DNA from: Bacteroidota bacterium
GTDB taxonomy: Bacteria; Bacteroidota; Bacteroidia; Bacteroidales; Paludibacteraceae
Assembly (NCBI GenBank): GCA_030706465.1
Contig: JAUZOM010000005.1
Location: 1-51,465 of the forward strand
Length of the DNA stretch: 51,465 bases
Reading direction: 5' to 3'
Shown: in pieces, positions 1,704 to 44,691 of the stretch
Numbering within the stretch: the stretch's first letter is position 1
How the letters are laid out: every line of letters starts with the position of its first letter
The notes under the pieces: model-generated
Told to the model about the DNA's origin: nothing
The model's database searches: none
Seen by the model: only the letters and a program-made list of their open reading frames with translations
Made by a program: the position numbers and the translations under genes

Positions 1704-1751
1704 CAAAGCAATCATTTCACAATTATACCATTAAACGATTACACAATATTT

Positions 1752-3422: not shown

Positions 3423-3553
3423 TCAAAACAATGTGATAACAGGCCAATAGAAACAATGACGATTAAATGAACTCGTTATTTCTGTTTCTTTTCCAGCACT
3501 AACCAGTTGGGAGCCGGTAGTAAAATTGATTTCGAATCTGGTTATACAAAAAT

Positions 3554-3592
3554 AAAATGCGCTTCCCTGAATAACATCGGAAAGCGCATTTT
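3554..3592. terminator. Bidirectional terminator between ettA and the PII-like gene
   Basis: Inverted repeat AAAATGCGCTTcC (3554-3566) with GGaAAGCGCATTTT (3579-3592), about 12 nt of loop, A/T tracts on both sides. It sits between convergent genes and can end transcripts from either direction. Confidence 0.8.
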
Positions 3593-3620
3593 GGTTTAAT
3601 AGAAATGAAATGATTCTGAA

Positions 3621-3914
3621 TTACATTCCGTCCTCTATGTTCCAGACAAAAGCACGAATACCCATACGCTCCGAAGTTCCATCCAACGTACGTAAATCTT
3701 CCAGTATCGGTTTTACCTTTGCATCATCAACCACCGTGAGAATGGCCGTATTTAGTGCCGGCCACGCGTGAGTTCCGTAATGAGGGTCACCGGTTATACT
3801 TCCGCGGCCAATAACCGATTCCCAACCACTAAAACCACGCACATGGTTGATTGACAAGATAGACTGAACCTGTTCATAATACGCTTGATCGAATGATATA
3901 AATATTGATTTCAT
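3621..3914 (-). CDS. PII-like signalling protein, last gene of the efflux operon
   Basis: A 97-residue soluble protein with no signal peptide. It begins MKSIFISFDQAYYEQVQSIL and has a ferredoxin-like beta-alpha-beta feel: a conserved HVRGFSGW..V.GRGS loop, an ILTVVDDAKVKPILEDL segment, and a C-terminal GIRAFVWNIEDGM strand. This resembles the short PII-like proteins (CutA/PII superfamily, DUF3240-like) found beside RND exporters in Bacteroidetes and in metal-resistance operons. It starts 11 bp after the stop of the RND permease, so it is surely cotranscribed. PII-like proteins bind nucleotides or metal ions and can gate a transporter; a role as sensor for this pump is inferred from position. 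The family call rests on pattern memory, not on an alignment. Confidence 0.6.
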   Translation of the reverse strand: MKSIFISFDQAYYEQVQSILSINHVRGFSGWESVIGRGSITGDPHYGTHAWPALNTAILTVVDDAKVKPILEDLRTLDGTSERMGIRAFVWNIEDGM

Positions 3915-3925
3915 CTTGATTGTTT

Positions 3926-7078: not shown

Positions 7079-7143
7079 AATTTCTTTTTTACAATTTATT
7101 TACTATTTGCGCATAAAATAATTACTGAATCATTTTATGCAAC

Positions 7144-8163
7144 TTACTTAACCAGTTTTACACTGGCGCCATCAACCAATTTTGACTGGCCGGCTACAAC
7201 TACCTGATCCCCTGCCGATATTCCGGAGATGATTTCATAATTACTTTCAATCCGACGACCTATTTCCACCTGCTTGTATTCTACTTTTCCATTATTATAG
7301 ACATACACAAACCGCGCCCCAGAACCGGATTGTTTAATAATTGCCTGGTCAAGCACCAATACACGCTTTGCTTTACCAAATTCCATAGTTACCCGGGCAA
7401 ACATTCCGGGGCGGACTTTATTATTGCTGTTATTCAATTTGATCTCTACCGGGAAAGTACGTGTGTTCATATCAATAGTCGGATATATCAGACTAACTTT
7501 ACCTTGAAATTTAGCTCCCTGAAAAATATCAAACTTTACATCAACCGGCATACCCAATTTAACTTGCGAATAATATGATTCCGAAACATTAATCAATACT
7601 TTAACCGGATTGATATTCATAACTACCAAAACCGGCTTTTGCGAAGAATACATATCTCCGTTATCGTAATTACGTTCGGTCACAACTCCACTGATCGGGC
7701 TAATTAAAAACGTATTTTCTGATAAATTCTTCAAATTAGTCTGAGCAACATCCAATTGAAGCTTGGCATTGTCAAGTTCCTGTTGTGAAGCGCCACCCAC
7801 ATTGAAAAGTTCCTGGGTACGCTTATAAGTCCGTTTAACGTTTTCTATTTGAGTTTCGGAGTTTGATAAATTGGCAACATCCATTTGTACCAACTTTTGC
7901 CCTTTTGATACATGTTGACCGACCTCAACTAATATATGACGGATTCGTCCCGGAGTGGCAGGTGCAATACTGTTTTTTGCCTCTGGCTGTACCGTTGCGG
8001 TTAACTCATAAGTTTGATCTATGTCACCCACGATAGCTTCCTGAACCCGTACATTCGGGATTTCATTTGCTTCTTTCGTATCGGTTTTTTCGGTTTTCTT
8101 GCATGAGCTAAATCCTAAAGCCAAAGCGCAAACCACAATGCCAACTAATTTAATTCGTTTCAT
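7144..8163 (-). CDS. RND efflux periplasmic adaptor (AcrA/MexA-like membrane-fusion lipoprotein)
   Basis: 339 residues. The N-terminus is a lipoprotein signal with lipobox FSSC (Cys21), so the adaptor is anchored to a membrane by lipid. A barrel-sandwich (lipoyl-like) half follows (TATVQPEAKNSIAPATPGRI, then VEVGQHVSKGQKL). Next are a short alpha-helical hairpin with an SQQELDNAKLQLDVAQTNL arm, the second lipoyl half (LISPISGVVTERNYDNGD), a beta-barrel region and a membrane-proximal domain ending GDQVVVAGQSKLVDGASVKLV. This adaptor links the RND permease to the TolC-like channel. It lies 31 bp from the channel gene and 65 bp from the permease gene, in one operon. Confidence 0.95.
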   Translation of the reverse strand: MKRIKLVGIVVCALALGFSSCKKTEKTDTKEANEIPNVRVQEAIVGDIDQTYELTATVQPEAKNSIAPATPGRIRHILVEVGQHVSKGQKLVQMDVANLSNSETQIENVKRTYKRTQELFNVGGASQQELDNAKLQLDVAQTNLKNLSENTFLISPISGVVTERNYDNGDMYSSQKPVLVVMNINPVKVLINVSESYYSQVKLGMPVDVKFDIFQGAKFQGKVSLIYPTIDMNTRTFPVEIKLNNSNNKVRPGMFARVTMEFGKAKRVLVLDQAIIKQSGSGARFVYVYNNGKVEYKQVEIGRRIESNYEIISGISAGDQVVVAGQSKLVDGASVKLVK

Positions 8164-8194
8164 TTGTATAATTGTTTATTATATTTTACTCTGA

Positions 8195-9568
8195 TTAATT
8201 CTTTAATTGCTTATTTCCGGCGGTATCTTTCCCTAGTAATTTCTCTAAATCGGATTTTGCTGAAAGATAATCGAAAATAGATTGATTGTATGATAATCCG
8301 GCTGTAATATAGGCCAACTCCGAGTCGGTAATATCCAGATACGTTCCTGAGCCTACATCATATCTTTTTTGCGAAATTGACACTGCTTTTTCGGCCTGAC
8401 GTAAGCCTTCCTTGTTTGAACTTATCTTTTGCATGGCCTTTTTAATGTTATCCAAACAAGATATCACCTGTAATTCCAAACTTCGCCGCAGATTATCACG
8501 TTGATCCTTCAACTCATCAATTTGAATTTGCAGTTGTTTTTCTTTATAGAGTCTTGTTCCTCCCTGAAAAATAGGGATTGAAACAGATAAACCGGCAGAA
8601 GAAACCGGAAACCAGGAATAAGTTGATAAAGGTACGCCACTATTTCCCATTGACTGATACTGATAACTAAAGCTGGCTGCTAAAGTTGGCCACCAAGCTG
8701 CTTTTTGAATCATAAGCGTATGATTCAACTGTTTTGCTTTGATATCAAATTGATTCAAATCTGTGTTGGTATGCAAAGTCGTTGTGTCGATTGCCAATAC
8801 ATCGCCATACATATTCGTTTCGAAGTCAGCCAAACTACCTTCGACTTTTAATCCGGTAAACATATCCATTCCAATAAGCATTTTTAATTGCAGGATACTC
8901 ATATTTACGGCTGTTTCAGCTGAAACAACATTCGATTGCGCATTTCTTACCTGAACATCAGCACGTATCCATTCAAATTCCGAGACAGTTCCCTGTTTAA
9001 ATTTGTTTTGGATTATACGGGCATTTTCAACTGTATTCTCATAACTTCTTCTAAATACGTTATATGAATCCTGCGCTAATAATATTCCATAATAAGCTTT
9101 CGTTACCTGGTTTATCAAGGAGAGCTTTGACGATCTGGAAGACTCAAGTGCTAATTGCGCATCAAGTTTTGTCATCTTCAATGTTGCCCATAAAGTGGGC
9201 GAAATAATTGGGAGACTAGCTGAAATGCCAAACCCAAATGAATTATCGGGAACAAACCCGGGAATTATTGTACCGGCCGGTAATCCAAACATGGCAACCG
9301 GTAAAATCATCTTTTGCGATTCAATTGATCTGGAATATGTTCCTCCGGCAGAGATATTGGGAAACAATGCCGCGAATTTCTCTTTTTTAGAATAATCCAC
9401 CCGAATGATTTCTTTATCCGACACTTTTATAGTCGGGCTCTGACTCAAGGCAATCTCCAATGCTTTTGGCAACGAGACCTTCAAAGTATCCTGTGCTTTT
9501 AATGCCATAAATGGCAACATACAAATCATTGCTGTTACCAATACATTTTTTTTACTAAATAGTTTCAC
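8195..9568 (-). CDS. TolC-family outer-membrane efflux channel
   Basis: 457 residues with a Sec signal ending at about KAQD (residue 27). The sequence shows the internal two-fold repeat of TolC/OprM proteins: long amphipathic helices rich in Ala, Gln and Ser (for example the segments around TKAYYGILLAQDSYN and KRYDVGSGTYLDITDSELAY) flanking short outer-membrane strands (SFSYQYQSMG, GLSVSIPIFQGG). Y/F-G-S-G-T-Y-L is the usual outer-membrane efflux protein signature. No lipobox is present, so it is TolC-like rather than OprM-like in anchoring. It is the first structural gene of the efflux operon, downstream of the TetR gene. Confidence 0.93.
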   Translation of the reverse strand: MKLFSKKNVLVTAMICMLPFMALKAQDTLKVSLPKALEIALSQSPTIKVSDKEIIRVDYSKKEKFAALFPNISAGGTYSRSIESQKMILPVAMFGLPAGTIIPGFVPDNSFGFGISASLPIISPTLWATLKMTKLDAQLALESSRSSKLSLINQVTKAYYGILLAQDSYNVFRRSYENTVENARIIQNKFKQGTVSEFEWIRADVQVRNAQSNVVSAETAVNMSILQLKMLIGMDMFTGLKVEGSLADFETNMYGDVLAIDTTTLHTNTDLNQFDIKAKQLNHTLMIQKAAWWPTLAASFSYQYQSMGNSGVPLSTYSWFPVSSAGLSVSIPIFQGGTRLYKEKQLQIQIDELKDQRDNLRRSLELQVISCLDNIKKAMQKISSNKEGLRQAEKAVSISQKRYDVGSGTYLDITDSELAYITAGLSYNQSIFDYLSAKSDLEKLLGKDTAGNKQLKN

Positions 9569-9802
9569 AATCTTATTCTAAATTAATTATTAAATATCTA
9601 TCAAAAATTATTATACGAAAGATTATATCCTTGAAATTTTTCACAAAAATATGTCCAAACAATCCATATGTCCGATAAAAAATCGATGAAATACCTTTTT
9701 TATACGATGAACAAAAGAAATAAAGTCTTAAATCCGGATCCACAATCTATTCTTCATCCCCAAAATACGGAACAAGTCAATTCCAAATTAGACAAGAGAT
9801 TT

Positions 9803-10417
9803 TTACCTTTCGAGTTCTGAAGTTGTTTGTTCCTTCATGTAACGTAATCCTTTTTCATTCGCAATAAAATGAATCATCAAATCAATGAAAAATTCAACTA
9901 ATCGCTTCTTTGTATATTTTTTGGATGATTGTTGCATCATTTCGAAGATGTTCTTAATTTGAAGGGAATGAAATAATGAGATAAGTTCAACGTCCAAATC
10001 TTCCCGGTAATAACCTTCGGCAATTCCCTGGCGTAAGTTCATTTCGAACCCCTGCCTTATTTCACTTCTTCTTTGTGATTCATGCTTTTCAAAAACCTTA
10101 GGATAGTATTTTTGTAAATCATAACACATCGATTGAGATTCAACCTCTAACGACTTCTTTATCTCCTTAATTATAAGTATTAATGAATCTATTGCGTTTT
10201 TATTCTTGAAGAGTTTGAGAAATTTATCATAATTGTTCTTCTTTTGCAGGGTCAAAACAGCATCCACAAGATCTTCCTTTTGTGGAAAATAAAGGTAAAA
10301 GGTTTTTTTTGAAATATGCAACTCATTACAAACATTGTCTATTGACACACTACGAATTCCAAATTGCTCAAATAAGCGACTCGCAACTAAAACAATATTT
10401 TCTTGCTGTATTTCCAT
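9803..10417 (-). CDS. TetR/AcrR-family transcriptional regulator
   Basis: 204 residues. The N-terminal DNA-binding domain contains the helix-turn-helix SIDNVCNELHISKKTFYLYF followed by PQKEDLV, the canonical TetR pattern. The C-terminal two thirds are helical and variable, as expected for the ligand pocket. It lies upstream of the TolC/AcrA/AcrB genes in the same direction with a 234-bp gap. It is probably their repressor, released by a pump substrate; this is inference from gene order. I see no convincing palindromic operator. Two copies of TTATACGA (9611-9618 and 9700-9707) are the only repeats noted in the gap. Confidence 0.9.
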   Translation of the reverse strand: MEIQQENIVLVASRLFEQFGIRSVSIDNVCNELHISKKTFYLYFPQKEDLVDAVLTLQKKNNYDKFLKLFKNKNAIDSLILIIKEIKKSLEVESQSMCYDLQKYYPKVFEKHESQRRSEIRQGFEMNLRQGIAEGYYREDLDVELISLFHSLQIKNIFEMMQQSSKKYTKKRLVEFFIDLMIHFIANEKGLRYMKEQTTSELER

Positions 10418-10440
10418 TAAGGTATATTATCAAATTTCAG

Positions 10441-10473
10441 CAAAATTATAAAATTATTTATTCATACTACAAT
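10441..10473 (-). promoter_or_regulatory. Candidate promoter of the tetR gene
   Basis: On the minus strand TAATTTTG (10441-10448) fits the -7 consensus TAnnTTTG. ATTG (10470-10473) lies 21 nt upstream as a possible -33 box. It is about 25 nt from the ATG at 10417, a typical short leader. Confidence 0.5.
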
Positions 10474-10598
10474 TTATTGATGTATTTTTTAGAACAAGAT
10501 TCCAAACGACATAATACACAATTGATATATAGATATTTAAATTTAAAACATAGAAACTATATTTTAGTCACAGTTTCCAAGTTTCCCTTAATAGCTAA

Positions 10599-10624
10599 AA
10601 AAGCCCTGAAAAATCAGGGCTTTT
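10599..10624 (-). terminator. Terminator of the wza-wzc operon
   Basis: Perfect 11-bp stem AAAAGCCCTGA / TCAGGGCTTTT with a 4-nt loop, 20 bp after the wzc stop codon. It separates the capsule pair from the tetR gene, which reads the same way. Confidence 0.85.
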
Positions 10625-10644
10625 AAGTTTAAGTTAAATGCTAT

Positions 10645-13008
10645 TTATTTCCGAATTTTATTAATTAAATTCATTTTCTCGGCAGAATCAGTCTTGTGAT
10701 GTCTTTGTCCATAGCCGTAACCATAACCGTAACCCGAACTTTCATCAGTTCCATTTAAGATAACAGACATATTATTTAGCTTGTTATGTTCATAAATTTC
10801 ATTTATCAACGTACACGCTTCCCGTGGAGTATAATTCTGACGGGCAACATAAACGCAGTTATCAGCTAATCTGTTAAGCAAATATGTATCAGAGACCAAA
10901 CCAATAGGCGCAGAGTCAATAATAATATAATCATACATTTCCCGTAATTGCAGAAATAAATCATCTAACCGTTGATTCATCATTAATTCTGCCGGATTCG
11001 GTGGAACCGGTCCTGCCGGAATTACGTCAAGATAAGGATGCAAATCGGAAGGGACAATAATATCTTCCGCTATGTAACTTTCATCAGAGATATAGATAGT
11101 AATACCCTTTTCTTTGGACAAATGCAGATAATTTCCTAACATAGGACTTCGGATATCCAATCCAACTAAAATCACTTTCTTTTTCAATAAAGCAAAAGTC
11201 ATAGCCAGATTAATAGCCGTAAATGATTTTCCCTCCCCACTAATGCTTGATGTAATTAAAATGACCGGTTTTTCCTTTCCAGCCAACATAAATTGTATAT
11301 TCGTTCGAATAATCCTGAACATTTCAACAATGGGAGTCGTCAAGCCTTCACGAACCACAACAATACCAGCATCTTTTTTCAATCCAATGGAGCCCAGGTA
11401 AGGTACTTTAATCAAGCGTTTTAATTCTTTACTATCCAGTATCTTATTGTTTAGCAAATCGGCAACATAAATATAAACCATTGGCAATATAATACCCAGC
11501 AATAGTGCCAAAAAATAAATCATCGTTCTTTTTGGTGATACCGGTGCCAGGGAAGAATAGGCGGGATCAATCGTTTTGGCCGATGGAATGGTACTTGCTA
11601 AACTCAGGGCATTCTCTTCTCTCTTTTGCAACAAAAACAGATATAACTTGGATTTTATCTCTTTCTGTCGAAGTATTTCGGTCAACTCCCTTTCTTGGGT
11701 GGGCACCCCATTTATTCTGGAATTAAACTGGGATGTTTTCCCTAACACATCTTTCTTCGCTATTTTTAATCCATCTTTAATGCTGGCAATACTGACAATA
11801 ATGCTGTTTCTCTGCTCTTTTAACTGTTGTTCCATTTGCATTAAAACAGGATTCCTTTCATTTGTTGTACGCAAAAGTTTCATCCGTTCCAATAATTCTT
11901 TATTATAATCCGCCATTAATTGAAGCAAGGATTTGTCTTCAATTCCTAAGTTAGCAGGGACCAAATCATAATGGTGCTTATTATCTTTTACATAAGCTTC
12001 AATATAACCTACCAGATTCAATTGGGTCTCCAACCCGGCTAATTTAGTATCATATTCACTGGCCGATTGCAAAAAGATATCGGCATCAGTGGTAATATCG
12101 GTCAGCTTATTCTTCTTCTTATAATTTTCCACGTTCATTTCTACATCCAACAATTCAGTACCAATCAATTTAATACGCTCCTGAACAAATGCAGCAGTAC
12201 TGGTGGCGATCAGATTTTTATCAATAACAGCGTCCTGATTGTATAATTCTATTAATTTGTCCAGAACAGCTTCCGATTTCTTCGGGCAAGCCGAAACGGT
12301 GGAAACATTAATAGCATTGGACTTCTTGGTTGCAGAATTTGCTTTAATGGACGAACAATAAGCATCTGTCAACAACCGAGTAGAATTGGATATAATTTTA
12401 AACGAATCACCTACTTTAATAGGAAGAATTTGTTGAAATTTAAAAGCACCCAATGGAGTATTGATCGTTTTATTTAAATCTGGGACTTCATACCTTTCTG
12501 AGAATCGACCTGATTTAAAATCAATTTGATAACCAGCATCTTTTCTTTTAAGTTTAAATAAAACCGATTGTTTGACCGTATCGTTAAATAATGGTGGAGT
12601 GATTAGTTTTAAAGGAGTCAACGGATAAATTTCATCGTATCTCAGTCCATTCTTTTCATAATATTCCGTTTCAATTCCAAGAGATTTAATAACATTCGTC
12701 ATTAATGTTTTGGAAGACAATAATTGAATCTCATCTTCCACTTCCTTTGAAGTACCGGATACTCCACCCAATCCATCGAGCATGGACATATCAAGCAGCC
12801 CGCTTTTTGAATTGTCTTTCCGAATCAAAATGGTAGTTTGAACGTCAAATTGTTCATTGGTAGTCTTTAAATAAAAGTAAGCAATGGCAAGACAAACTAT
12901 AACAGAGATCAAAAACCAATGCCATTTCTGTAAGTATTTGATAAGTATTTCTCTTATATTAATAATCTCAGTATTCGAAGAGTTTAAGTCGGGGGTATTA
13001 TTTTCCAT
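10645..13008 (-). CDS. Wzc-like chain-length regulator / BY-kinase (tyrosine autokinase)
   Basis: 787 residues. A first TM (about 30-48) precedes a periplasmic Wzz/GNVR coiled-coil region, then a second TM (about 496-518) and a cytoplasmic BY-kinase domain. That domain has Walker A SGEGKS (590-595), Walker A' VGLDIRSP (615-622) and Walker B IIIDSAP (695-701). The C-terminal tail has a Tyr cluster with four Tyr alternating with Gly (Tyr760-766), then QRHHK. In Wzc-type proteins such tyrosines are autophosphorylated and control polymer assembly and export. It is 50 bp downstream of the wza gene and ends at a strong terminator. No glycosyltransferase, flippase or polymerase gene is in view, so the polysaccharide made with this pair is encoded elsewhere or beyond reach. 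Confidence 0.93.
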   Translation of the reverse strand: MENNTPDLNSSNTEIINIREILIKYLQKWHWFLISVIVCLAIAYFYLKTTNEQFDVQTTILIRKDNSKSGLLDMSMLDGLGGVSGTSKEVEDEIQLLSSKTLMTNVIKSLGIETEYYEKNGLRYDEIYPLTPLKLITPPLFNDTVKQSVLFKLKRKDAGYQIDFKSGRFSERYEVPDLNKTINTPLGAFKFQQILPIKVGDSFKIISNSTRLLTDAYCSSIKANSATKKSNAINVSTVSACPKKSEAVLDKLIELYNQDAVIDKNLIATSTAAFVQERIKLIGTELLDVEMNVENYKKKNKLTDITTDADIFLQSASEYDTKLAGLETQLNLVGYIEAYVKDNKHHYDLVPANLGIEDKSLLQLMADYNKELLERMKLLRTTNERNPVLMQMEQQLKEQRNSIIVSIASIKDGLKIAKKDVLGKTSQFNSRINGVPTQERELTEILRQKEIKSKLYLFLLQKREENALSLASTIPSAKTIDPAYSSLAPVSPKRTMIYFLALLLGIILPMVYIYVADLLNNKILDSKELKRLIKVPYLGSIGLKKDAGIVVVREGLTTPIVEMFRIIRTNIQFMLAGKEKPVILITSSISGEGKSFTAINLAMTFALLKKKVILVGLDIRSPMLGNYLHLSKEKGITIYISDESYIAEDIIVPSDLHPYLDVIPAGPVPPNPAELMMNQRLDDLFLQLREMYDYIIIDSAPIGLVSDTYLLNRLADNCVYVARQNYTPREACTLINEIYEHNKLNNMSVILNGTDESSGYGYGYGYGQRHHKTDSAEKMNLINKIRK

Positions 13009-13058
13009 GCTTTTAAAATACTTTAAAAAAAAGTGAGGTTACGTTTCTTTTAAAACTT

Positions 13059-13847
13059 TTAGTTTTTTGTTATTGAATAGATTACAGCAACGACAGTTGC
13101 AATGGTCGATGCAGCAGACAAATAGAGGGACGTATTTTGGGAGGCTACTGATTTTACTGAACTTGGTTCAACATAAATAACATCATTTTGTTGCAGGTAA
13201 TAATACGGGGATTTAAAAACATCATCCGAATTTAAATTTAATCTGACAAATTCCAGTTTGCCATTATTTTCCCTGGTTATCAGCACATTGTTCCTTTTTC
13301 CATAGATAGTCATATCTCCAGCCAAACCCAATGCGTCCAATATGGTTACGCGTTCATTGCTGATAGAATACTGACCGGGTCGTAAAACTTCCCCTAAAAC
13401 TGTCACCTTGTAATTCATAAATTGAATAGTAATGATGGCATTCTTCAAATAGGGTGAAAGCTGATCGTTTAGATATTTAATAGCCTGTGACTTAGTAAGT
13501 CCGGCTAGTTTTATAGTTCCAATGACTGGAAAACTGATATTTCCGTTGATATCCACCAAATAGGATTGTAAGGTTGGTGCTGAATATAATTGGTCGCTAC
13601 CCGGGGTGGCGTATGAAACTAAAGGAAGGTTAAACGGTGCTACGGCCAACGGATCCAGACCCGTAACCGTTATTGAAAGCATATCGCCTGAGCAGATCCG
13701 GGCTTCATGTATTTTATTAAACTTTTTATTAATCGAGTCAGCTGAATTGGAATTTACGCCATAAAAATAAGCGACTTCCTTTTGTGTGGTACAACCGACA
13801 AATGCCAGTACAAATACAACTAAAAATAAATAAAAGGTTTTCTTCAT
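13059..13847 (-). CDS. Wza-like polysaccharide export lipoprotein
   Basis: 262 residues from ATG 13847. It starts MKKTFYLFLVVFVLAF with lipobox FVGC, so it is an outer-membrane lipoprotein. An upstream in-frame ATG (13871) would add MLYKLMLY before the signal and is less likely. The body has the poly-export domain (ICSGDMLSITVTGLDPLA, then SYLVDINGNISFPVIGTIKLAG with SQAIKYLNDQL) followed by a SLBB-like domain (KVTVLGEVLRPGQYSISNERVTILDALGLAGD). The end is a short hydrophobic helix. It should form the outer-membrane exit pore partnered by the Wzc-like kinase encoded next. A good TAnnTTTG promoter lies about 110 bp upstream. Confidence 0.93.
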   Translation of the reverse strand: MKKTFYLFLVVFVLAFVGCTTQKEVAYFYGVNSNSADSINKKFNKIHEARICSGDMLSITVTGLDPLAVAPFNLPLVSYATPGSDQLYSAPTLQSYLVDINGNISFPVIGTIKLAGLTKSQAIKYLNDQLSPYLKNAIITIQFMNYKVTVLGEVLRPGQYSISNERVTILDALGLAGDMTIYGKRNNVLITRENNGKLEFVRLNLNSDDVFKSPYYYLQQNDVIYVEPSSVKSVASQNTSLYLSAASTIATVVAVIYSITKN

Positions 13848-13955
13848 GTAAAGCATTAATTTATATAACATTGAGAACGGTTAAACTTTCTAATGGATGA
13901 AACTGACAAAACTCAGTAACTTAATTTGACTGATCCTACTACAAAAAAGAAGCTA

Positions 13956-13963: not shown

Positions 13964-14361
13964 CCTTAATCCACAAGAACAAACAAGTCTATCTGGTAAA
14001 ATAGTAAAATATTTTTTAATAAAAATTGAAAACTCGTGTTAAATTACATATAAATTCTTTTCCCCAAAATTGCTAATTGCGAACAATTAATGCGATAGAA
14101 ATCGTTCCCCTAAAGAATTTGGGTAGATTTGGCTACATCAAAAAGAGTCTAACACAAAACGAAAAAAAATTAAAAATAGTATTTTATCAACTTAATTCTG
14201 TGAAAAAATATGTCTCTATAACGTTTGGGGTGGGTAATTGAAATACCATTAATATTCATTTCTCCGTAGGAGAAAACTGTAGATAGCCTGTACCTGGTTT
14301 TTAAATTCAACAATTCAATGATTCGATGATTCATCCTCCTCGCATCCTATTCTGTTCTCAT

Positions 14362-14491
14362 TTTAGGTAAACTTATACCATTACCTGGGATAAATCAGGG
14401 ATAATCCATAGATAACCCATATCATTAATGATATGGGTCATCTATGGGATATCTATGGGACATCTATAGGTTAACTATGGGAAAACCTAAA
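14362..14491. repeat. 11-bp periodic array with central dyad, array B (divergent unit)
   Basis: The centre is a perfect 22-nt palindrome at 14416-14437 (half-site CCCATATCATT). To its right 11-bp units follow: GGTCATCTATG, GGATATCTATG, GGACATCTATA, GGTTAACTATG. To its left are inverted relatives (ATCCATAGATA with upstream CAGGGATA). Outer ends are TTTAGGT (14362-14368) and ACCTAAA (14485-14491). The unit differs from the other three arrays, but period, dyad and ends are the same. Confidence 0.75.
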
Positions 14492-14765
14492 CTAAGATGC
14501 GACCGGACATAGACATGATGCCGATTAGACTGTAAGATGTGGTGAATCGGATAGTTCTTTTCGAAGGAGTAAACGAATGCTCTAACTGGAACCATCAGAC
14601 TCTAAATTCGGTACTTCATAACCTGGGATCGGGATAAGGAATAATCCTATTCGGCAGTAAATCCTTCTACCCCGGATTTGTAGCGAGGGGCTCATGGTGA
14701 TTTATTTATAACACCTGATCATTTCTACAGGGAACCTTCCGGGTTGCACCTCTTGTATAATCAAA

Positions 14766-14806: not shown

Positions 14807-15151
14807 ATTGGAAAGAGTTGCCATTGATGTGTTGACAGCCACTTTAAATCAGTCAAAGAGTGCAGAGTTATTGTGTTGTGGGGTTAATGTTGTCATCAAT
14901 ATCATTCAGACGTTGTACCCGCACAAATAAGGATAGAATCAGGAATAGGATCTGTTTTATTTCGGGTAAACTCAATTTTGATTACCCACCTTATTGGTTA
15001 TAGAGCCTAAAATATATCCTCATTTATTTCTGATATCAAATCAATATGTTTTATTCTCTTGATTGTTATTAACAGGTGGTGCATAATCTGCGATAAGTAA
15101 TTGCATTCCATAAAGAATGTGTGTCTTTAATTTCTCTCTTTTACGAAATGG

Positions 15152-15345
15152 TTCTACCGGATAAGTTATAGAAATAAGTCTGAATTATCCTGAAATAGCT
15201 GATTAGCAATCCTTGTTGTTTAATGAAAAATTTTAATTGAATGACTCAACCCATACCGAAACGATCTGGATGCAGAATCAAAAAATTAATTTCAATAAAT
15301 AACAGAAGCCGCAAGATCTTCTACAACCTTTCTGGTAAAACCAAT
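15152..15345 (+). repeat. Dispersed repeat element, copy B (short form without the array)
   Basis: The first 146 bp match copy D (39597-39744) and inverted copy A. Shared blocks are CTACCGGA, GAATTATCCTGAAA, GATTAGC, GTTTAATGAA, ATACC and AAAAATTAATTTCAATAA. Immediately after, 15297-15345 matches the far end of copy D (40122-40167): AATAACAG, GATCTTC.ACAACCT and GG.AAAACC. The roughly 375 bp between these in copy D, including the 11-bp array, are absent here. Confidence 0.7.
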
Positions 15346-25187: not shown

Positions 25188-25419
25188 TGTGTCAAAGCTA
25201 TTTTTAAGTAATTGAAAATATAGATTGCCCGCCGTTATTTTTACTTCTTACTGGAAGAAAACCCATTCGCGTTCCATTTTTTCATTTGCTTGAGTAAACG
25301 ACAAGGATACATTCATCTGAATTTTCCGGATAGACTAAAAACAGCATAAAGTGGCATCTCTTTTTCAAAAGAGGAAGCATTCCCTGTCTGAGTGCAGTCT
25401 TATTTTAGTCTTATTTTAC

Positions 25420-25564
25420 TTTAGGTATAGAGGGGGTTCAGTTAGGGTTCAGTTAGGGTTCAGTTAGGGTTCAGTTAGGGTTCGGATAGGGTTTGGATAG
25501 GTAGACCTAACTGAACCCCCTCGAAACCCTCTCCATACTCCCGTTGAAATGTCTCCATACCTAA
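25420..25564. repeat. 11-bp periodic array with central dyad, array C
   Basis: After TTTAGGTATAGA the unit GGGTTCAGTTA repeats four to five times, then drifts to GGGTTCGGATA and GGGTTTGGATA. Near TAGGTAGACCTA (25498-25509) the orientation flips to CTAACTGAACCCCC and CGAAACCCTC. It ends with TACCTAA (25558-25564), inverse to the start. Architecture is the same as array A. Confidence 0.85.
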
Positions 25565-26255
25565 CATGAGCTCCGGCTGAAATAAGAGGATACTACCCGG
25601 GGAGGAAGGACTAAGATTGAAACAACATCAGTCAACGGGTTGGAATCCGGTGAAGGATCGACTCCAACACCCCACCAACTTCGTCCGATGGCCGGGTGCC
25701 GGATCAATAGCCAACAGAGATTGTCTCTATGTATAAAATGGATATTCAGCTATTCCAACTGCTTTTATAGGAAAATTACTTGCTGCAATCTTGCTTAGTA
25801 TCTGATTGCTCCTTCATTCATTGGCCATTCGGTTTTAGAGGTTCCGTATTTATATAGATCGGGATTCTGTACGGGTTATATCGGGATAACACAGGAAAAA
25901 TGTAGCGTTTATCCTAGAACAAACCCCGAACAAGAAATGAAGACAATAAGGAGGGAAACACGGGAAGAAAAAAGATGGTTCTTTGACTAAAATAAACCTG
26001 AAGCGGGGATTCGATTTCAGAAAAGGGAATCAGGGACTGGAAGGTGAAATATAAATTCAGCTTTGCCGGTTTGCCGCAAAATCATCAATCCAATGAATCT
26101 GGATCGGAATGAAAACCCAGGAAAGGAGAAATAATTCATGCAGTATGATGCCCTGGAAATGGGAATACGACAATGGACCGTTTCAGACACCCCATCCGAT
26201 AAATCCGGTTAAACCCGGATCAGCATTTGCTACAAAAACCATCCGGAAGCTGATT

Positions 26256-36818: not shown

Positions 36819-39410
36819 TTACTTATTCTCGAAAACCAATCCGTTTTCATCAACATCCACCACAATAGACTGGTCATTCTGTACTTTTCCGGAGATCAAT
36901 TGTTTTGACAAGTCGTTCAGCACATACTTTTGGATAGCCCGTTTTACAGGACGTGCACCAAATTGTGGATCAAAACCTTCCCCGGCAATAAAATGAATGG
37001 CTTTTTCTGTCAGTTCCAGTTGAACACCGTTCCCCTGCAAGGTCTTTTGAATCAAGGACAGTTGCAAACGGACAATCTCCTCTATCTGCGATTCGTTTAA
37101 CGGAGCAAACATCACCAGTTCATCAATCCGGTTCAGGAATTCAGGGCGGATGGTTTGTTTCAAGAGTTCAAACACCTGTGTTTTGGTCCTTTCAATCACT
37201 TCTGCCTGATTTTGATTGGTCATACTCTCAAAATTATCACGTATCAACGTAGATCCAATGTTGGAAGTCATGATAATGATGGTATTCTTGAAATTCACCA
37301 ACCGTCCCTTATTATCGGTCAGACGTCCATCGTCCAGCACTTGCAGCAATACGTTGAACACATCGGGATGTGCCTTTTCTATTTCATCGAAAAGCACTAC
37401 CGAATACGGTTTCCTGCGGATAGCTTCGGTCAGCTGCCCTCCTTCATCATATCCCACATATCCCGGAGGTGATCCGATCAACCGTGTTACCGAGAATTTC
37501 TCCTGATACTCGCTCATATCAATTCGCGTCATCATGTTTTCATCATCGAACAGGAACTCAGCCAACGCCTTTGCGAGTTCTGTTTTACCGACTCCTGTCG
37601 TACCCAGGAATATAAAAGAGCCTATCGGCCGTTTGGGGTCCTGCAGCCCGGCACGACTTCTACGAACGGCATCTGCTACTGCTTGTATTGCTTCATCCTG
37701 TCCTACCACCCGTAAATGCAACTCTTCTTCCAAATTAAGCAGTTTATCTTTTTCTGATTGAAGCATCTTTTTGACGGGTATACCGGTCCAGCGACTCACT
37801 ACATCGGCAATATCTTCACTGTCGACTTCTTCTTTTATCAATGCATGGGCACCTTGCATGGTTGCCAGTTTCGCCTTGAATTGAGCGATCTGTTCCTCTG
37901 CCGCTTTAATCTTACCATAGCGAATTTCTGCTACCAGTCCGTAGTCTCCTTCACGTTCAGCTTTATCTGCCTGATATTTCAGGTCCTCAATCTCTATTTT
38001 AGTTTGCTGAATGCTGTCGATCAGTTGTTTTTCCGACGACCATTTAGCACGCATCTCCTTCCCTTCTTCCTTCAAATTGGCAATTTCTTCATTCAACTGT
38101 GCCAACTTACGCGTATCGTTTTCCCGCTTGATCGCTTCCCGTTCTATCTCCAGCTGTTTAACATTACGATCAATAATATCCAGTTCTTCCGGTACCGAAT
38201 CAACTTCCAGCCTAAGCTTGGCAGCCGCTTCATCCATTAGGTCGATGGCTTTATCCGGCAAGAACCGGTTGGTAATATACCGGCTCGACAGTTCTACCGC
38301 CGCGATAATGGCATCATCTTTGATCCTTACTTTATGGTGATTTTCATACCGCTCTTTCAACCCACGAAGGATGGATATGGTACTGGGGATATCGGGTTCG
38401 TCCACATTGACAAGCTGGAAACGACGTTCAAGGGCTTTATCTTTTTCAAAGTATTTTTGATATTCATCCAACGTGGTAGCTCCGATAGCTCTCAATTCTC
38501 CACGTGCCAAAGCAGGTTTCAGGATATTGGCGGCATCCATAGCCCCATCGCTTTTGCCGGCACCCACCAGGGTGTGGATTTCGTCAATAAACAGGATCAC
38601 TTCCCCTTCGGCTTTTATCACTTCATTCACAACCGCCTTCAGCCGTTCTTCAAATTCCCCCTTGTACTTGGCACCGGCTATTAAAGCTCCCATATCCAAC
38701 GAGAATATCTGTTTCGATTTCAGGTTTTCCGGTACATCACCACGTACAATTCTGTGTGCCAATCCTTCGGCAATGGCTGTCTTTCCTACGCCCGGTTCAC
38801 CAATCAATATCGGGTTATTCTTGGTACGCCGGGTCAGTATTTGAAGCACCCTTCGGATCTCTTCATCACGGCCGATGACAGGATCCAGCTTACCTGCACG
38901 GGCCTGCTCGTTCAGGTTAATGGCATACTTGTTCAAGGCATTATAACTTTCCTCCGCGGAAGCAGAGTCTGCCTTTGCTCCTTTTCTTAATTCCTGGATG
39001 GCCTGTTGTAATTCACTTTCGCTGACCCCTGCATCCTTCAGCACTTTAGACATTTCATTTTTCTCATTCACCAATGCCAGCAAGATATACTCCAGTGAAA
39101 CAAACTGATCGCCGGCCTTGGTTGAAAGAGCTGTCGCTTTTTGCAACACGGCATTGGTTTCCCGGCTCAGGTAAGGTTCCCCCCCCGATACACGGGGATA
39201 ACCACCGATCATACTGTTTGCAATTGCTTGAACGGATGATACATTCACACCCAGTTTCCCAAACAGGAATTGGGTCAAATCCTCTCCTTTGGCAAGTAAA
39301 CCTAAAAATAAGTGTGGTGTTTCAACCGCTTGCTGGCCGTTCGACTGAACCAGTTCTATCGCATGCTGTATGGCTTCCTGCGATTTCAGGGTAAAATTAT
39401 TAAAGTTCAT
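36819..39410 (-). CDS. clpB: ATP-dependent disaggregase ClpB
   Basis: 863 residues, the ClpB length (E. coli 857). The N-terminal Clp repeat domain begins [20 protein letters not shown]. The first AAA+ module has Walker A GEPGVGKT (204-211) and [15 protein letters not shown]. Next comes the coiled-coil middle domain that separates ClpB from ClpA/C (roughly 400-530, rich in Glu/Lys), then the second AAA+ module with [19 protein letters not shown] and [16 protein letters not shown]. No ClpP-binding loop (IGF) was noticed. It extracts proteins from aggregates with DnaK after heat stress. I see no CIRCE or clear TAnnTTTG element in the upstream 150 bp. Confidence 0.97.
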
Positions 39411-39596
39411 TGTTAGCTCGTTAAGTTGTTTGATTCTATGCTTGCTTAATATAAATTCATATTACGTTATTTGGTTCAACAATTTCTTTACCAATAGACA
39501 GATTCTGCTAAATTGTCATTTAAAATATTTATTTAACTGAAAAACAAGACATTATTTCAGTATTCAAGACAATTAATGATAAATTAAAGCAGTTGG

Positions 39597-40170
39597 CCCT
39601 ACCGGACAGGTTGTGGGGAAAAGACTGAATTATCCTGAAAGAGCAGATTAGCGATTCGTGTCGTTTAATGAAGAATTTTGAATGAATGAACCGATACTCC
39701 AACTAAACTACCCAGATGCAGGATCCAAAAATTAATTTCAATAACAAATAGAGCTATTCTGACCTTATTGCTTATGTTTCTTTAATTGCCCTTTACCGGA
39801 GCATAACCTGCTTCCTTTCTTTGTATAAAAAGGAATCGGAAAGATTACCGATAGGGTTCGGTTAGGGTTCGGATAGGGTTACCTATCCGAACCCTAATTG
39901 AACCCTAATTGAACCCTATCGGAAGTTATACTATGCTAAGAGCGGGTGACGGAAGGAATAGGAGGAGACAGCGTACAGCCAAAGCCGAAACCTGAATCAA
40001 AAAAAACACATAAAATTGCTGGTTAATAATAGTTTAAGAGCTTTACAAAAGAGAAGTTAAATGGAATATTTGCCCGAAAGAGAACGCTGACCGTAAAAGT
40101 AGAGTTTCATTGGCATTTAATAACAGCAGGATAGATCTTCCACAACCTATACGGCAAAACCTAATTATTT
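39597..40170 (+). repeat. Dispersed non-coding repeat element, copy D (full form)
   Basis: Order of blocks: head 39597-39744 (shared with copies A and B), spacer with AATCGGA, 11-bp array 39848-39922, TATTTGCCCGAAAGAG (about 40070-40085), TTTCATTG, and a tail with GGATAGATCTTCCACAACCT and CGGCAAAACC (to 40167). Copy A has the same order on the minus strand. Copy B has head and tail fused. No frame longer than a few dozen codons spans the element. Confidence 0.7.
39848..39922. repeat. 11-bp periodic array with central dyad, array D (compact)
   Basis: 75 bp bounded by CCGATAGGGTTC and GAACCCTATCGG, a perfect 12-bp inverted pair. Left arm: about 2.5 units of GGGTTCGGTTA type. The dyad is at ATAGGGTTACCTAT (39873-39886). 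Right arm: CCGAACCCTAATTGAACCCTA and so on, three units. This is the shortest and most symmetrical of the four arrays. Confidence 0.85.
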
Positions 40171-40273
40171 ATCCGGATATTCAAGCATCGACCAATAATT
40201 AGTAAAAATGAAATTTTTCAACATTTGCAAGGTGGTTTTTTTTGTTTTTATGTAATATATTCACAAAAAAAGC

Positions 40274-40334: not shown

Positions 40335-43058
40335 ATGAGTAACACGAAAAGAGTCTATACTTTTGGCAATGGACAAGCCGAAGGTAAAGCAGACATGAGA
40401 AATTTGCTCGGAGGAAAAGGAGCAAACCTGGCTGAAATGAATTTAATCGGCGTACCGGTACCTCCGGGTTTTACGATCACGACTGATGTTTGTACGGAGT
40501 ATTTTACACTGGGAAAAGATCAGGTTGTTGAACTGCTAAAGCCAGAGGTGGAGAAAGCCATCGCCGGAGTAGAGAAACTGATGAATTCAAAGTTCGGTGA
40601 TATAGAAAACCCGTTATTAGTTTCCGTACGTTCAGGTGCCCGTGCTTCTATGCCGGGGATGATGGATACGATTTTGAACTTAGGTCTGAATGATGCCGTG
40701 GTGGAAGGTCTGATCCGGAAAACCGGCAACGCACGCTTTGCCTGGGACTCCTACCGCCGCTTTGTACAAATGTACGGGGATGTAGTGTTAGGCATGAAAC
40801 CTGCCAACAAAAACGACATTGATCCTTTCGAGGAAATTATTGAACATATAAAGAAAGCCCGGGGTGTTGAATTAGATACCCAACTTTCAGTAGACGACCT
40901 GAAAGAACTGGTCGTAAAATTTAAAGCCGCCGTATTAAAACAAACCGGCCACAACTTCCCCGAATCAGCCTATGAACAACTTTGGGGAGCAATCTGCTCG
41001 GTATTCGATTCGTGGATGAACGAACGGGCTATCCTGTATCGTAAAATGGAAGGAATACCTTCCGAATGGGGGACAGCGGTTAGTGTACAATCCATGGTAT
41101 TCGGCAATATGGGTGATACTTCGGCAACCGGCGTCTGCTTCTCGCGCGATGCGGCAACCGGCGAAGACCTATTCATCGGTGAATATCTGATCAATGCACA
41201 GGGTGAAGATGTGGTGGCAGGTATCCGTACGCCTCAACAAATCACCATAGAAGGTTCAAAGCGCTGGGCCAAACTGGCCGGCATTCCGGAAGCCGACCGG
41301 GCTGCCAACTACCCTTCGATGGAAGAAGCCATGCCGGCTATTTATAAAGAATTGGATGCTATCCAGACCAAACTGGAAAATCATTACAAAGATATGCAGG
41401 ACATGGAATTTACCGTACAGGAAGGTAAATTATGGTTCTTGCAAACCCGTAACGGGAAACGTACAGGCGCTGCCATGGTAAAAATAGCTATCGACATGTT
41501 CCACCAAGGCATCATAGACGAAAAAAAGGCCATCCTGCGTATTGATCCCAACCGATTGGATGAACTGCTTCACCCGATATTCGATAAAACAGCGATCAAG
41601 AATGCAAAACTCATTGCCAAAGGATTGGCTGCTTCTCCCGGAGCTGCTTCGGGCAAGGTAGTCTTCAATGCCGATGATGCTGCTGAATGGGCTGCCAGGG
41701 GGGAGAAAGTAATCATGGTCCGTATTGAGACTTCCCCTGAAGACCTGGCCGGTATGGCTGCCGCCAAGGGAATCCTGACTGCCCGGGGCGGTATGACTTC
41801 CCATGCCGCTGTAGTAGCACGCGGAATGGGTAAATGTTGTGTCTCAGGAGCCGGAACCTTAAAAATCGACTACGTTACTAAAACCATCGAGGTAGACGGG
41901 CTAAGCGTGAAAGAAGGCGATTACATCTCGCTGAACGGATCGACCGGTGACATTTTCTTAGGACAGGTTGGAACGAAGGAAGCTGAATTGGATGCCGACT
42001 TTGCCGAACTTATGACCTTAGCAGATAAACACACCCGAATGACCGTACGTACCAACGCCGATACACCGCACGATGCCCATGTTGCCCGCAAATTCGGAGC
42101 TACCGGGATTGGCCTGTGCCGTACGGAACACATGTTCTTCGAAGGGGAAAAGATCAAAGCTATGCGTGAAATGATATTGGCTGAAGATGAAGAAGGCCGT
42201 CGTATTGCACTGGCAAAAATCCTGCCTTATCAGGAAGCTGACTTTGAAGGAATCTTCGCCGCTATGGAAGGATGTCCGGTTACCGTACGGCTGCTCGATC
42301 CTCCGTTGCATGAATTTGTACCTCATGATGAAAAAGGACAACAGGAAATGGCGGTAGCCATGGGCGTATCCCTAAAAAAGATCCAACAACGCGTGGATTC
42401 ACTCCACGAGCAAAACCCTATGTTAGGCCATCGCGGATGCCGGTTGGGAAATACCTATCCTGAAATTACAGAGATGCAAACCCGTGCTATTTTGGGAGCT
42501 GCTTTAGTCCTCAAGAAAAAAGGCATCAAAGTGCTGCCCGAAATTATGGTACCATTGGTTGGCATTGAATCTGAATTTATCCTGCAAGATAAAATTATCC
42601 GGGATACGGCAGCCACGTTATTCAAAGAAAGAGGCGACAGCATTGAATTCAAAGTAGGAACCATGATTGAAATTCCGCGTGCAGCCTTAACAGCCGACCG
42701 CATTGCTGCAACAGCCGAGTTCTTCTCATTCGGGACCAATGACCTGACCCAAATGACTTTCGGTTATTCCCGGGATGATATTGCCTCCTTCCTACCGATT
42801 TATTTAGAAAAGAAAATCTTGCAAAACGATCCATTCCAGGTACTGGATCAAACAGGAGTAGGTCAATTGGTGCAAATGGCAACTGAGAAAGGACGTTCCG
42901 TGAATCCGAAGTTAAAAGTTGGCATTTGTGGTGAACATGGCGGTGAGCCATCCTCGGTTGAATTCTGCCACCGTTCTGGATTGAACTATGTAAGCTGCTC
43001 ACCTTTCCGTGTGCCTATTGCCCGGTTGGCTGCCGCACAGGCTGCATTGAAAAATTAG
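40335..43058 (+). CDS. ppdK: Pyruvate, phosphate dikinase
   Basis: 907 residues. The N-terminal ATP-grasp domain begins YTFGNGQAEGKADMRNLLGGKGANLAEM. The phospho-carrier His490 lies in GGMTSHAAVVARGMGKCC. The C-terminal PEP/pyruvate barrel has TGIGLCRTEHMFF, PMLGHRGCRLGNTYPEI, FSFGTNDLTQMTFGYSRDD and GICGEHGGEPSSVEFC with the catalytic Cys. It interconverts ATP + phosphate + pyruvate with AMP + PPi + PEP in the cytoplasm, so it can act in gluconeogenesis or PPi-linked glycolysis, both common in anaerobic Bacteroidetes. Monocistronic, ended by a strong terminator. Confidence 0.97.
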   Translation: MSNTKRVYTFGNGQAEGKADMRNLLGGKGANLAEMNLIGVPVPPGFTITTDVCTEYFTLGKDQVVELLKPEVEKAIAGVEKLMNSKFGDIENPLLVSVRSGARASMPGMMDTILNLGLNDAVVEGLIRKTGNARFAWDSYRRFVQMYGDVVLGMKPANKNDIDPFEEIIEHIKKARGVELDTQLSVDDLKELVVKFKAAVLKQTGHNFPESAYEQLWGAICSVFDSWMNERAILYRKMEGIPSEWGTAVSVQSMVFGNMGDTSATGVCFSRDAATGEDLFIGEYLINAQGEDVVAGIRTPQQITIEGSKRWAKLAGIPEADRAANYPSMEEAMPAIYKELDAIQTKLENHYKDMQDMEFTVQEGKLWFLQTRNGKRTGAAMVKIAIDMFHQGIIDEKKAILRIDPNRLDELLHPIFDKTAIKNAKLIAKGLAASPGAASGKVVFNADDAAEWAARGEKVIMVRIETSPEDLAGMAAAKGILTARGGMTSHAAVVARGMGKCCVSGAGTLKIDYVTKTIEVDGLSVKEGDYISLNGSTGDIFLGQVGTKEAELDADFAELMTLADKHTRMTVRTNADTPHDAHVARKFGATGIGLCRTEHMFFEGEKIKAMREMILAEDEEGRRIALAKILPYQEADFEGIFAAMEGCPVTVRLLDPPLHEFVPHDEKGQQEMAVAMGVSLKKIQQRVDSLHEQNPMLGHRGCRLGNTYPEITEMQTRAILGAALVLKKKGIKVLPEIMVPLVGIESEFILQDKIIRDTAATLFKERGDSIEFKVGTMIEIPRAALTADRIAATAEFFSFGTNDLTQMTFGYSRDDIASFLPIYLEKKILQNDPFQVLDQTGVGQLVQMATEKGRSVNPKLKVGICGEHGGEPSSVEFCHRSGLNYVSCSPFRVPIARLAAAQAALKN

Positions 43059-43104
43059 AGCAAAGGACAAAGAGCCAAGAACAAAGAGTTAAAATTTTGG
43101 TTAT

Positions 43105-43147
43105 AAACAAGACAGGCTATCTCACTACGAGATAGCCTGTCTTGTTT
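43105..43147. terminator. Bidirectional terminator between ppdK and the helicase gene
   Basis: Perfect 19-bp stem (43105-43123 / 43129-43147), core GACAGGCTATCTC, 5-nt loop, with AAACAA/TTGTTT ends. It lies between convergent genes. Confidence 0.9.
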
Positions 43148-43184
43148 AACAAAAAACTGTCAATTATGAACTGTCAACTAAGAA

Positions 43185-44516
43185 CTACTTTTTCTTCTGC
43201 CCTCTTGTTTTGGGCTTTTTATATTTTAAACGCATAGACTCAGCACGCCTGATTTTATTGTTTACCTTCTTGTTTTTATCACTTTTCTCGTGAAATGCAG
43301 CTCCCCCTTCTTCCTTTTTAGGAACGGTAACCAGTGAGTTCTTCATCTTCACTTGCGGCAACTCATCCGGAGTTAATTCTTTTGAAACGACCACTTCAGG
43401 GGGTAATGTAACAATCGGGATCTTCCTGCTCATTAAAGCTTCAATATCCTTCCGGTTCTCCGCATCCACCTTTGTTATAAATGTGATGGAAACACCATTT
43501 TTATCGGCCCGCCCGGTACGGCCGATCCGGTGCATATAATTCTCCGCAATCTCGGGCACATCAAAATTGACCACATGCGACACATCGGATATGTCAAGGC
43601 CACGGGCTACAATGTCGGTAGCAATAAGGACGGGAATCAGGTTTTCCTTGAAGCTGCGCATGGTTTCGAACCGATTATTCTGGGATTTATTAGAATGTAT
43701 CAACCCAATCTGTTCCGAAAATTTAGGTGTAAGTTCTTCATAGAGGGCATCAGCCAGTTTTTTTGTTGAAGTAAACACTAATACTTTTGAAAATTCAGGA
43801 TTATTCTTTATCAGGAATTCAAGCAAATTTACTTTCGTATGGAAGTTAGGAACTTTAAAACCGATTTGCTTAATATTCTCAAGCGGAGTTCCGGTGGGGG
43901 CAGCTTCAATCTCGAGCGGTTCGACAAAAAAATCATGAACAAGATCTTTTAACTCTTCTGAAATAGTGGCTGAGAACATCAGGTTTTGTCGCTTAGTCGG
44001 CAACAAATCAATGACACGAATCAATTGAGGACGAAAACCGAGATTCAACATCTCATCCACTTCGTCTATCACAAATCGTTTAATTAGTTTTAATTTCAGG
44101 GTACCATTCAAGGCAAAGTCCAACAGCCTGCCCGGAGTTGCTACCAATACATCAACCCCGGCCAATAATAAAGGAGTCTGGCGAATCATATTCACACCAC
44201 CATATACTCCGGCAACCCGAACATTCATGTATTTAGTAAGCAGTTCCACCTGCTCCACCACTTGTACCACCAATTCGCGGGTAGGCACTACAATCAGTAT
44301 TTGAGGATGTTTTTCTTTGGTAAACTTCCATTGCCTTAAACATGGCAGCAGATAGGCTATTGTTTTTCCTGTACCTGTTTGTGCAATTCCCACAATATCA
44401 CGTCCGGACATGATGGCAGGATAAGCTCTTTCCTGGATAGTTGTTGTTTGCGTTATACCTAAGTCGTTCAACGCATTTATTAAAGGAGTATTGATGTTTA
44501 ATTCGGTAAAATTCAT
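43185..44516 (-). CDS. DEAD-box family ATP-dependent RNA helicase (DEVD variant)
   Basis: 443 residues. Motifs in order: Q motif GITQTTTIQERAYP, motif I AQTGTGKT, Ia PTRELVVQ, motif II DEVD in place of DEAD, motif III SAT, motif V ARGLDISDVSHVVNFD and motif VI HRIGRTGRADKNG. After the helicase core a basic, low-complexity tail (about 375-443, ending RLKYKKPKTRGQKKK) probably binds RNA. It is RhlE-like in length and tail. DEAD-box helicases unwind short RNA duplexes in ribosome assembly or RNA decay; the target is unknown. Confidence 0.92.
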   Translation of the reverse strand: MNFTELNINTPLINALNDLGITQTTTIQERAYPAIMSGRDIVGIAQTGTGKTIAYLLPCLRQWKFTKEKHPQILIVVPTRELVVQVVEQVELLTKYMNVRVAGVYGGVNMIRQTPLLLAGVDVLVATPGRLLDFALNGTLKLKLIKRFVIDEVDEMLNLGFRPQLIRVIDLLPTKRQNLMFSATISEELKDLVHDFFVEPLEIEAAPTGTPLENIKQIGFKVPNFHTKVNLLEFLIKNNPEFSKVLVFTSTKKLADALYEELTPKFSEQIGLIHSNKSQNNRFETMRSFKENLIPVLIATDIVARGLDISDVSHVVNFDVPEIAENYMHRIGRTGRADKNGVSITFITKVDAENRKDIEALMSRKIPIVTLPPEVVVSKELTPDELPQVKMKNSLVTVPKKEEGGAAFHEKSDKNKKVNNKIRRAESMRLKYKKPKTRGQKKK

Positions 44517-44534
44517 TTAAGCAAGGTATAATTT

Positions 44535-44691
44535 ATAATTCATAATGCATAATTCATAATGCATAATTCATTGTATGCTGAATTAATTCGCTGCAAAGAT
44601 AGTCTAAATGTATCACACCTTGAAATTTAAACTATAACCGATTGATATTTAATGAATCCATGTACCTTTTTATTATGCATTATGAATTATG
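44535..44691. repeat. Inverted repeat pair around the helicase promoter
   Basis: A 19-nt sequence ATAATTCATAATGCATAAT (44535-44553) has its exact reverse complement at 44673-44691. The left arm also repeats a 14-mer CATAATGCATAATT in tandem (44541-44554, 44555-44568). Between them lies the helicase promoter. The right arm ends 14 bp from the pdxH stop. Confidence 0.75.
44594..44601 (-). promoter_or_regulatory. -7 box of the helicase gene
   Basis: Minus strand reads TATCTTTG, exact consensus, about 78 bp before the ATG at 44516. The -33 site at 19 nt (TTCA) is poor. Confidence 0.6.

Follow-up and report, generated by a model that had tools for sequence, protein, structure and literature searches.

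Between two protein-coding genes of a Paludibacteraceae genome lies a long stretch of DNA that encodes no protein and carries an array of 11-bp repeats. What kind of sequence is this, and how did it come to occupy its present position? The locus was analysed within a window of 51,465 nucleotides, which is the whole stretch of DNA considered here. The original prediction described a dispersed, non-coding element of ~570 bp at 39597-40170 that resembles a second island near the start of the window, and it left open whether the origin is mobile (MITE-like) or reflects a conserved chromosomal function. The evidence favours the mobile origin. In its full form, the best reading, which is probably correct, takes this locus (island D) to be one copy of a MITE-like, non-autonomous element, termed type 1, with a foldback minisatellite inside it.

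Two diverged copies of one non-coding element

Islands D and A, on opposite strands of the window, represent one non-coding element of ~570 bp in two diverged but colinear copies. Island D is located between clpB (36819-39410, - strand) and ppdK (40335-43058, + strand), names that reflect a reading of the translations and are not database calls. The features of the two copies are:

39595-40161, + strand: island D, type-1 element of 567 bp (alignment to A and other copies)
39595-39619, + strand: left terminal inverted repeat of D; 16 of its 22 first positions match the reverse complement of the right end (by eye)
39847-39922, + strand: inverted 11-bp array, the hairpin core of D (TRF rows 39850-39880 and 39889-39918, RNA fold, sequence letters)
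40067-40082, + strand: conserved tail motif TATTTGCCCGAAAGAG (alignment; variants present in other copies)
40137-40161, + strand: right terminal inverted repeat of D (alignments, end pattern, sequence letters)
1057-1602, - strand: island A, second type-1 copy (alignments; tail end by end pattern)
1240-1362, - strand: inverted 11-bp array of A, with arms unequal in length (TRF and sequence letters)

When 39550-40200 is aligned locally to the reverse complement of 1000-1650, the score is 136. Scores from 300 dinucleotide shuffles have a mean of 22.3 (sd 2.4) and a maximum of 35, and none reaches 136. The predicted match, strongly diverged and colinear, therefore withstands the objection raised against it in advance, that it might score no better than shuffled sequence. 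With the array omitted, the heads alone score 78 (163 identical of 230 aligned positions) and the tails alone score 68 (86 of 105); neither value is reached in 300 shuffles. The 16-nt exact match said to be common to both islands was recovered as the tail motif of D and at 1137-1152 on the - strand in A. No conserved reading frame had been anticipated, and all six frames of both copies contain 8-16 stop codons. The longest stop-to-stop frame that touches D has 57 amino acids and extends beyond the element.

Element boundaries were placed where imperfect inverted ends begin and stop, as judged from alignments and sequence letters, and the extent of D is better given as 39595-40161 than as 39597-40170, and that of A as 1057-1602 rather than 1040-1600. 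A search pattern for the ends detects the right end of D and the tail end of A. It misses the left end of D and the head of A because both are too diverged.

An inverted array forms the hairpin core

The array had been noted as an 11-bp repeat, which is correct, but its inverted arrangement was missed, as were related hairpins with unrelated units (see below). In oriented copies, TAGGGTTCNGW units on the left are followed by a centre such as GGTATACC and by GAACCCTAWCN units on the right. Because the array is inverted, its two opposed arms fold into a hairpin in the middle of the element. The computed fold of D has an energy of -154.6 kcal/mol on the + strand, with z -5.9 relative to shuffles and z -4.6 on the - strand.

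Arm lengths are uneven. Two or three units make up 84 of 99 left arms (range 0-4, where a count of 0 means that the parser lost frame, for example, at L001, L004 and L100), and right arms contain up to 10 units. Since the right arms vary so widely and the left arms mostly hold two or three units, the core presumably gains and loses 11-bp steps by slippage.

A pattern for the inverted array matches the source genome (G000) 83 times in forward and 86 times in reverse orientation, mostly as the two strands of the same sites, with 61 distinct sites among the matches listed. The reversed control pattern gives no match in either orientation. A hand count places 14 of the 60 array loci no more than 250 bp from the end of a contig (for example, C10/C58, C64 and C185), compared to about two expected by chance, so that copy counts in this genome are likely lower bounds. 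One pair of loci, L029 and L030, looks like a single array split over two contig ends.

Type-1 copies, ends and gene context

Island D has at least 98 matches in its own genome (4.34 Mb, 337 contigs), a lower bound obtained by scoring 40 of 121 first-look candidates. Aligned type-1 copies have a common start, GGTTCTACCGGATAGGTTRTGRAAACAAG, and a common end, CTTCCACAACCTATCCGGCAAAACC, which are imperfect terminal inverted repeats of the GGTTYTRCCGG type. The end pattern occurs at 25 places in the genome, including the right end of D, the tail end of A and the following copy:

15150-15342, + strand: internally shortened type-1 copy of 193 bp (end matches at 15150-15173 and 15319-15342; sequence)

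This copy is devoid of the array and retains both ends, which match at 19 of 24 positions by eye. Heads of type-1 elements exist in a long and a short form. Many copies keep one end only, and they are often truncated and old. No target-site duplication was evident by eye at the ends of the aligned type-1 copies. Another small inverted-repeat element, with ends like TTCTACTTTA and TAAAGTAGAA, seems by eye to be nested in or beside three type-1 copies (L022, L126 and L019).

The elements are intergenic. Called genes overlap the core at none of 71 loci in the source genome and at none of the 27 parsed loci in a relative, G005, a count that omits two unparsed loci (L031 and L043). A cruder cut-off of 70 amino acids places short open reading frames over 9 of 58 cores. 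Where both neighbouring genes were called in the source genome (37 loci), 21 pairs are divergent, 14 co-directional and 2 convergent. The cruder gene calls give 14, 12 and 1, respectively (27 loci), and G005 gives 7, 12 and 5 (24 loci). A preference for promoter sides, which the 21 divergent and 2 convergent pairs might suggest, was rejected, as these numbers roughly follow the length of spacer in each class: 19.3 kb divergent, 18.3 kb co-directional and 5.3 kb convergent of 43 kb in G000, elements included.

Type-2 elements and hybrids

The 60 array loci in the source genome fall into two groups of roughly equal size, one with type-1 flanks and the other, termed type 2, with flanks that are quite unlike them. 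Sorting by regular expression gives a 31/29 split, in which at least L067 and L086 are misfiled as judged by eye. Type-2 elements are about 500-560 bp long with the ends TAAGTANNTGGAATAACTGAATG and ATTTCCAATTACTTA. One is present in the window:

25205-25767 (edges approximate), - strand: type-2 element with the same TAGGGTT core as type 1 and different ends, of the TAAGTANNTGGAA type (alignments, sequence letters)

The proposal that the array is one module of a diverged, dispersed family thus gains strength, since the same module also resides in a family with different ends. A search for the type-2 left end matches 29 places in the genome, of which 12 were already in the set, 15 were newly read and 2 were left unread. 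Eleven of the newly read loci have arrays of the variant unit CCCTCACTGAA; a G-rich centre marks two others (L098 and L100), and at two more (L092 and L097) the contig ends before the core. Four loci (L010, L013, L021 and L025) appear by eye to be hybrids, with a type-1 left side and a type-2 right side. Such hybrids are expected if arrays recombine, and because of them it is probable that the core has been swapped between elements with different ends through recombination inside the array.

Most type-2 copies have TA at both ends, which is ambiguous as a target duplication because it may belong to the repeat. Several hundred bases around the end-pattern matches inspected were examined by eye. 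These matches are the elements themselves or truncated copies, and no autonomous relative bearing such ends appeared among them. An IS630 element was considered as the type-2 parent and rejected: there are five PF13358 matches, and at the four loci where ends were sought none was convincing except a remnant beside L057. Here (L057/L221, C31:1167-1364 of the source genome), an IS630-type transposase fragment that lacks a start adjoins a type-2 copy, and after the fragment comes CATTACTTA, a sequence similar to the type-2 end. This observation serves as a lead only.

Distribution and insertion between clpB and ppdK

Among 48 genomes of the same genus, three carry the inverted TAGGGTT array (G000, G005 and G008). 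These three form one clade with support of 1.000 in a nucleotide tree of clpB from 20 genomes. Across 91 genomes drawn from the family, the pattern matches only the source genome and one other, the latter by a single hit with three mismatches that is not array-like; the reversed control pattern also matches once, in G088. The second of the two origins left open by the prediction, a conserved chromosomal function, is rejected on the basis of this narrow range. One of the three genomes, G005, is the Paludibacter sp. STB_57 MAG or its twin, with 2427 of 2427 bases identical in the sole genome-contig record matched. This places the genus at or near Paludibacter, in the Bacteroidales. Island D has no blastn match in plasmid or phage records, and the exact array pattern is absent from viral contigs, although these record sets may omit the genome itself. 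A plasmid or phage origin was rejected on these grounds.

The spacer between clpB and ppdK measures 925 bp in the source genome. Both genes were found in 9 of 29 other loci fetched, and in seven of these nine relatives the spacer measures only 284, 289, 289, 323, 331, 337 or 341 bp. This difference indicates that D is an insertion. The remaining two relatives have spacers of 520 bp (G015) and 884 bp (G005). The G005 spacer holds a different 11-bp hairpin, with units TACAGTGATAT, and no type-1 element. Island A adjoins an ABC-F-like gene, upstream of which no array was seen by eye within up to 900 bp in seven relatives; at one of these loci (L209) only about 215 bp precede the gene and the next upstream gene differs. 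Island A therefore also looks lineage-specific.

Related hairpins with other 11-bp units

In the source genome, 25 of 49 TRF arrays across 250 kb have a period of 11 or 22 bp, as do 21 of 85 across 200 kb of G005, compared to 2 of 42 in G015, 0 of 11 in G062, 0 of 14 in G048 and 0 of 8 in G001, a contrast that is somewhat inflated because pattern matches guided the choice of the G000 and G005 contigs and of the window. An 11-bp autocorrelation of 0.45 or more is seen in 9 of 13 long hairpins of the source genome and in 4 of 12 of G005, and in none of the 6 from these four relatives. Unit sequences among these hairpins include TATGGGACATC, CCCCCTCGATA, TATATATACCA and TATGGATTATA. One such hairpin is located in the window:

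14355-14500, no strand assigned: related hairpin with the 11-bp unit TATGGGACATC (TRF; 65 paired and 17 mismatched positions)

Its flanks, TTTTAGGTA and ACCTAAACTAAGAT, resemble by eye those of other cores. A hairpin of the same TATGG type is present in G005 (C95:28001-28144), and in both genomes the hairpin is situated upstream of one and the same gene (15632 in the window). The two hairpins match over 93 bp by blastn (72%, E 4e-9) and are possibly orthologous.

In a third type, found in G005, the palindrome extends nearly from end to end, with CATGATGTCGC arms and inner units of ATAATCCATAT or ATTACAGTGAT. The search gave 31 matches, of which 25 were read, and several of these are the two ends of one copy. 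The set studied leaves out non-palindromic, coding-like sites (L222, L224, L225, L227, L229, L244 and L250) and two copies with ATTACAGTGAT units (L234 and L241). Outer arms of type 3 pair better within a copy than between copies, with p 0.010 on the + strand and 0.017 on the - strand (n = 16, including L223) or 0.007 and 0.006 without L223 (n = 15). A plain count of matches gives p 0.089 (n = 16) and 0.056 (n = 15). The same test is negative for type 1 (p 0.47 and 0.20, n = 24) and for type 2 (p 0.98 and 0.85, n = 30), and the effect in the TAGGGTT arrays of G005 is weak (n = 27, p 0.02 and 0.056). Own-copy pairing as proof of selection on the hairpin is thus unsupported in the TAGGGTT families.

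Origin of the elements

Mobile origin is favoured because the elements have inverted ends, are dispersed and have gene-free cores, because the clpB-ppdK spacer differs by the size of an insertion, and because a shortened copy retains both ends. Judged by sequence, the family is likely one of MITEs: its members are short (~570 bp) and have no coding capacity, their terminal inverted repeats are recognisable though imperfect, and they are multi-copy, dispersed and intergenic. A transposase supplied in trans would act on the imperfect inverted ends. The elements would have spread in the ancestor of the three sister species and later decayed and diversified. A MITE origin as such leaves unexplained why an 11-bp period and inverted arms occur across unrelated units. 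In the favoured account, the units change in sequence over time, whereas the 11-bp period and the inversion of the arms persist. The differing unit sequences may descend from one ancestral core, with the palindrome kept by arm-to-arm correction or by selection. A bolder proposal, which must be considered distinctly unlikely, is that these are bacterial foldback elements defined by geometry alone, in which the 11-bp step and opposed arms are kept and unit sequence is free. If true, it would point to some process by which palindromes are built or read 11 bp at a time. A polymerase or transposase might copy a hairpin arm in increments of one A-form turn, for instance, or an RNA duplex might be read with that pitch.

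Eleven base pairs correspond to one turn of an A-form helix, and the elements could alternatively be structured non-coding RNA genes or leaders whose hairpin is made as RNA, with the 11-bp pitch read by a protein or RNase. The fold of D, far better than shuffled sequence on both strands, is in keeping with this idea, as are the tendency of type-3 outer arms to pair best within their own copy and the persistence of period and palindrome despite sequence change. However, the plain match count in type 3 gives p 0.056 (n = 15) and 0.089 (n = 16), the own-copy advantage is null in types 1 and 2 and weak in the G005 arrays, and the arrays are absent from 45 of 48 congeners. There is no clear strand preference either, and the type-3 effect is similar on both strands. 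On the + strand, A.C mismatches outnumber G.T mismatches in type 1 (80 to 50), type 2 (203 to 121) and the G005 arrays (101 to 53). A strand preference based on these counts was rejected, as the three agreeing sets are related rather than independent and ten other hairpins go both ways. A known RNA identity was also rejected, since the window yields one tRNA and no other Rfam family at gathering score; weak matches on D are to microRNA models and are uninformative because any hairpin gives them. An RNA function is accordingly judged unlikely.

Protein-binding sites, for nucleoid, partition or transposase accessory proteins, would make the MITE bodies mere carriers of the arrays. Regular 11-bp spacing and the many sites per genome would suit such a role, and genome-specific unit dialects could follow a co-evolving binding protein. 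This account is quite improbable: units differ completely between arrays of one genome, which ill suits a single sequence-specific protein, and the loci are spread over spacer classes roughly in proportion to length. The excess of arrays near contig ends raises the further concern that hairpins and repeats were mis-joined in a fragmented draft assembly. Such an artefact is extremely improbable, as arrays also reside deep inside contigs, including those of the less fragmented G005, and the length difference at D falls between genes that are conserved on either side. The MITE-like reading is retained.

Relation to known elements

Porphyromonas gingivalis belongs to the Bacteroidales. BrickBuilt (PMC4596501) is a non-coding, intergenic MITE of this species that has a leader, a tandem-repeat core, a tail and short inverted ends, a narrow host range and many incomplete copies. 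Its core consists of 23-nt direct repeats and its ends are IS5-like (GAGACCTTTGCA type; GAGACCTTYGCA). Among bacterial systems compared, BrickBuilt comes closest both in plan and in taxonomy, as the elements studied here likewise have a Bacteroidales host, a gene-free intergenic plan, a tandem-repeat core and inverted ends. In contrast, their units are 11 bp long and lie in opposed arms, their ends are of the type-1 or type-2 kind and not IS5-like, and their core is common to families with different ends.

Inverted arms of short tandem repeats are described for the foldback element Tm1 of root-knot nematodes (PMC3169594), where 13-15 bp repeats occur in variable number and foldback repeats are reported as hotspots of ectopic recombination. 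The hairpins studied here also have inverted arms of short tandem repeats. However, foldback elements are eukaryotic and their composite repeats form the termini, whereas the arms are internal in types 1 and 2 and near-terminal only in type 3. REP sequences are described (PMC3733652, PMC3116915) as dispersed extragenic palindromes of 20-40 bp, and REPINs are termed miniature mobile DNA; the present elements differ in their length of about 200-570 bp and in their tandem 11-bp arms. Literature on 11-bp repeats, MITEs, palindromes and foldback elements contains nothing recognisable as the present element among the matches listed.

A short mobile element with a tandem-repeat core was therefore already known from P. 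gingivalis. The present families add one core of opposed 11-bp arms that resides between different ends, and related hairpins that retain period and palindrome despite changed sequence. Within a single clade of three species, they offer natural material for studying how long bacterial palindromes grow and persist, and for asking whether the hairpins are passengers or parts with a role.

Gene order around the elements

Compared with the genes from 15632 onward, the gene block at 1749-13871 has the opposite orientation in G005. In the source genome, the spacers at the two breaks hold island A on one side, and the 14355-14500 hairpin together with the short type-1 copy on the other. Because elements or a hairpin occupy both break spacers, element-mediated inversion is possible. 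The arrays, which coincide with assembly breaks, may also underlie a local inversion. Short tandem arrays of 7- and 14-bp units are present at 44528-44571 and 43057-43186 of the window and are not of the 11-bp kind.
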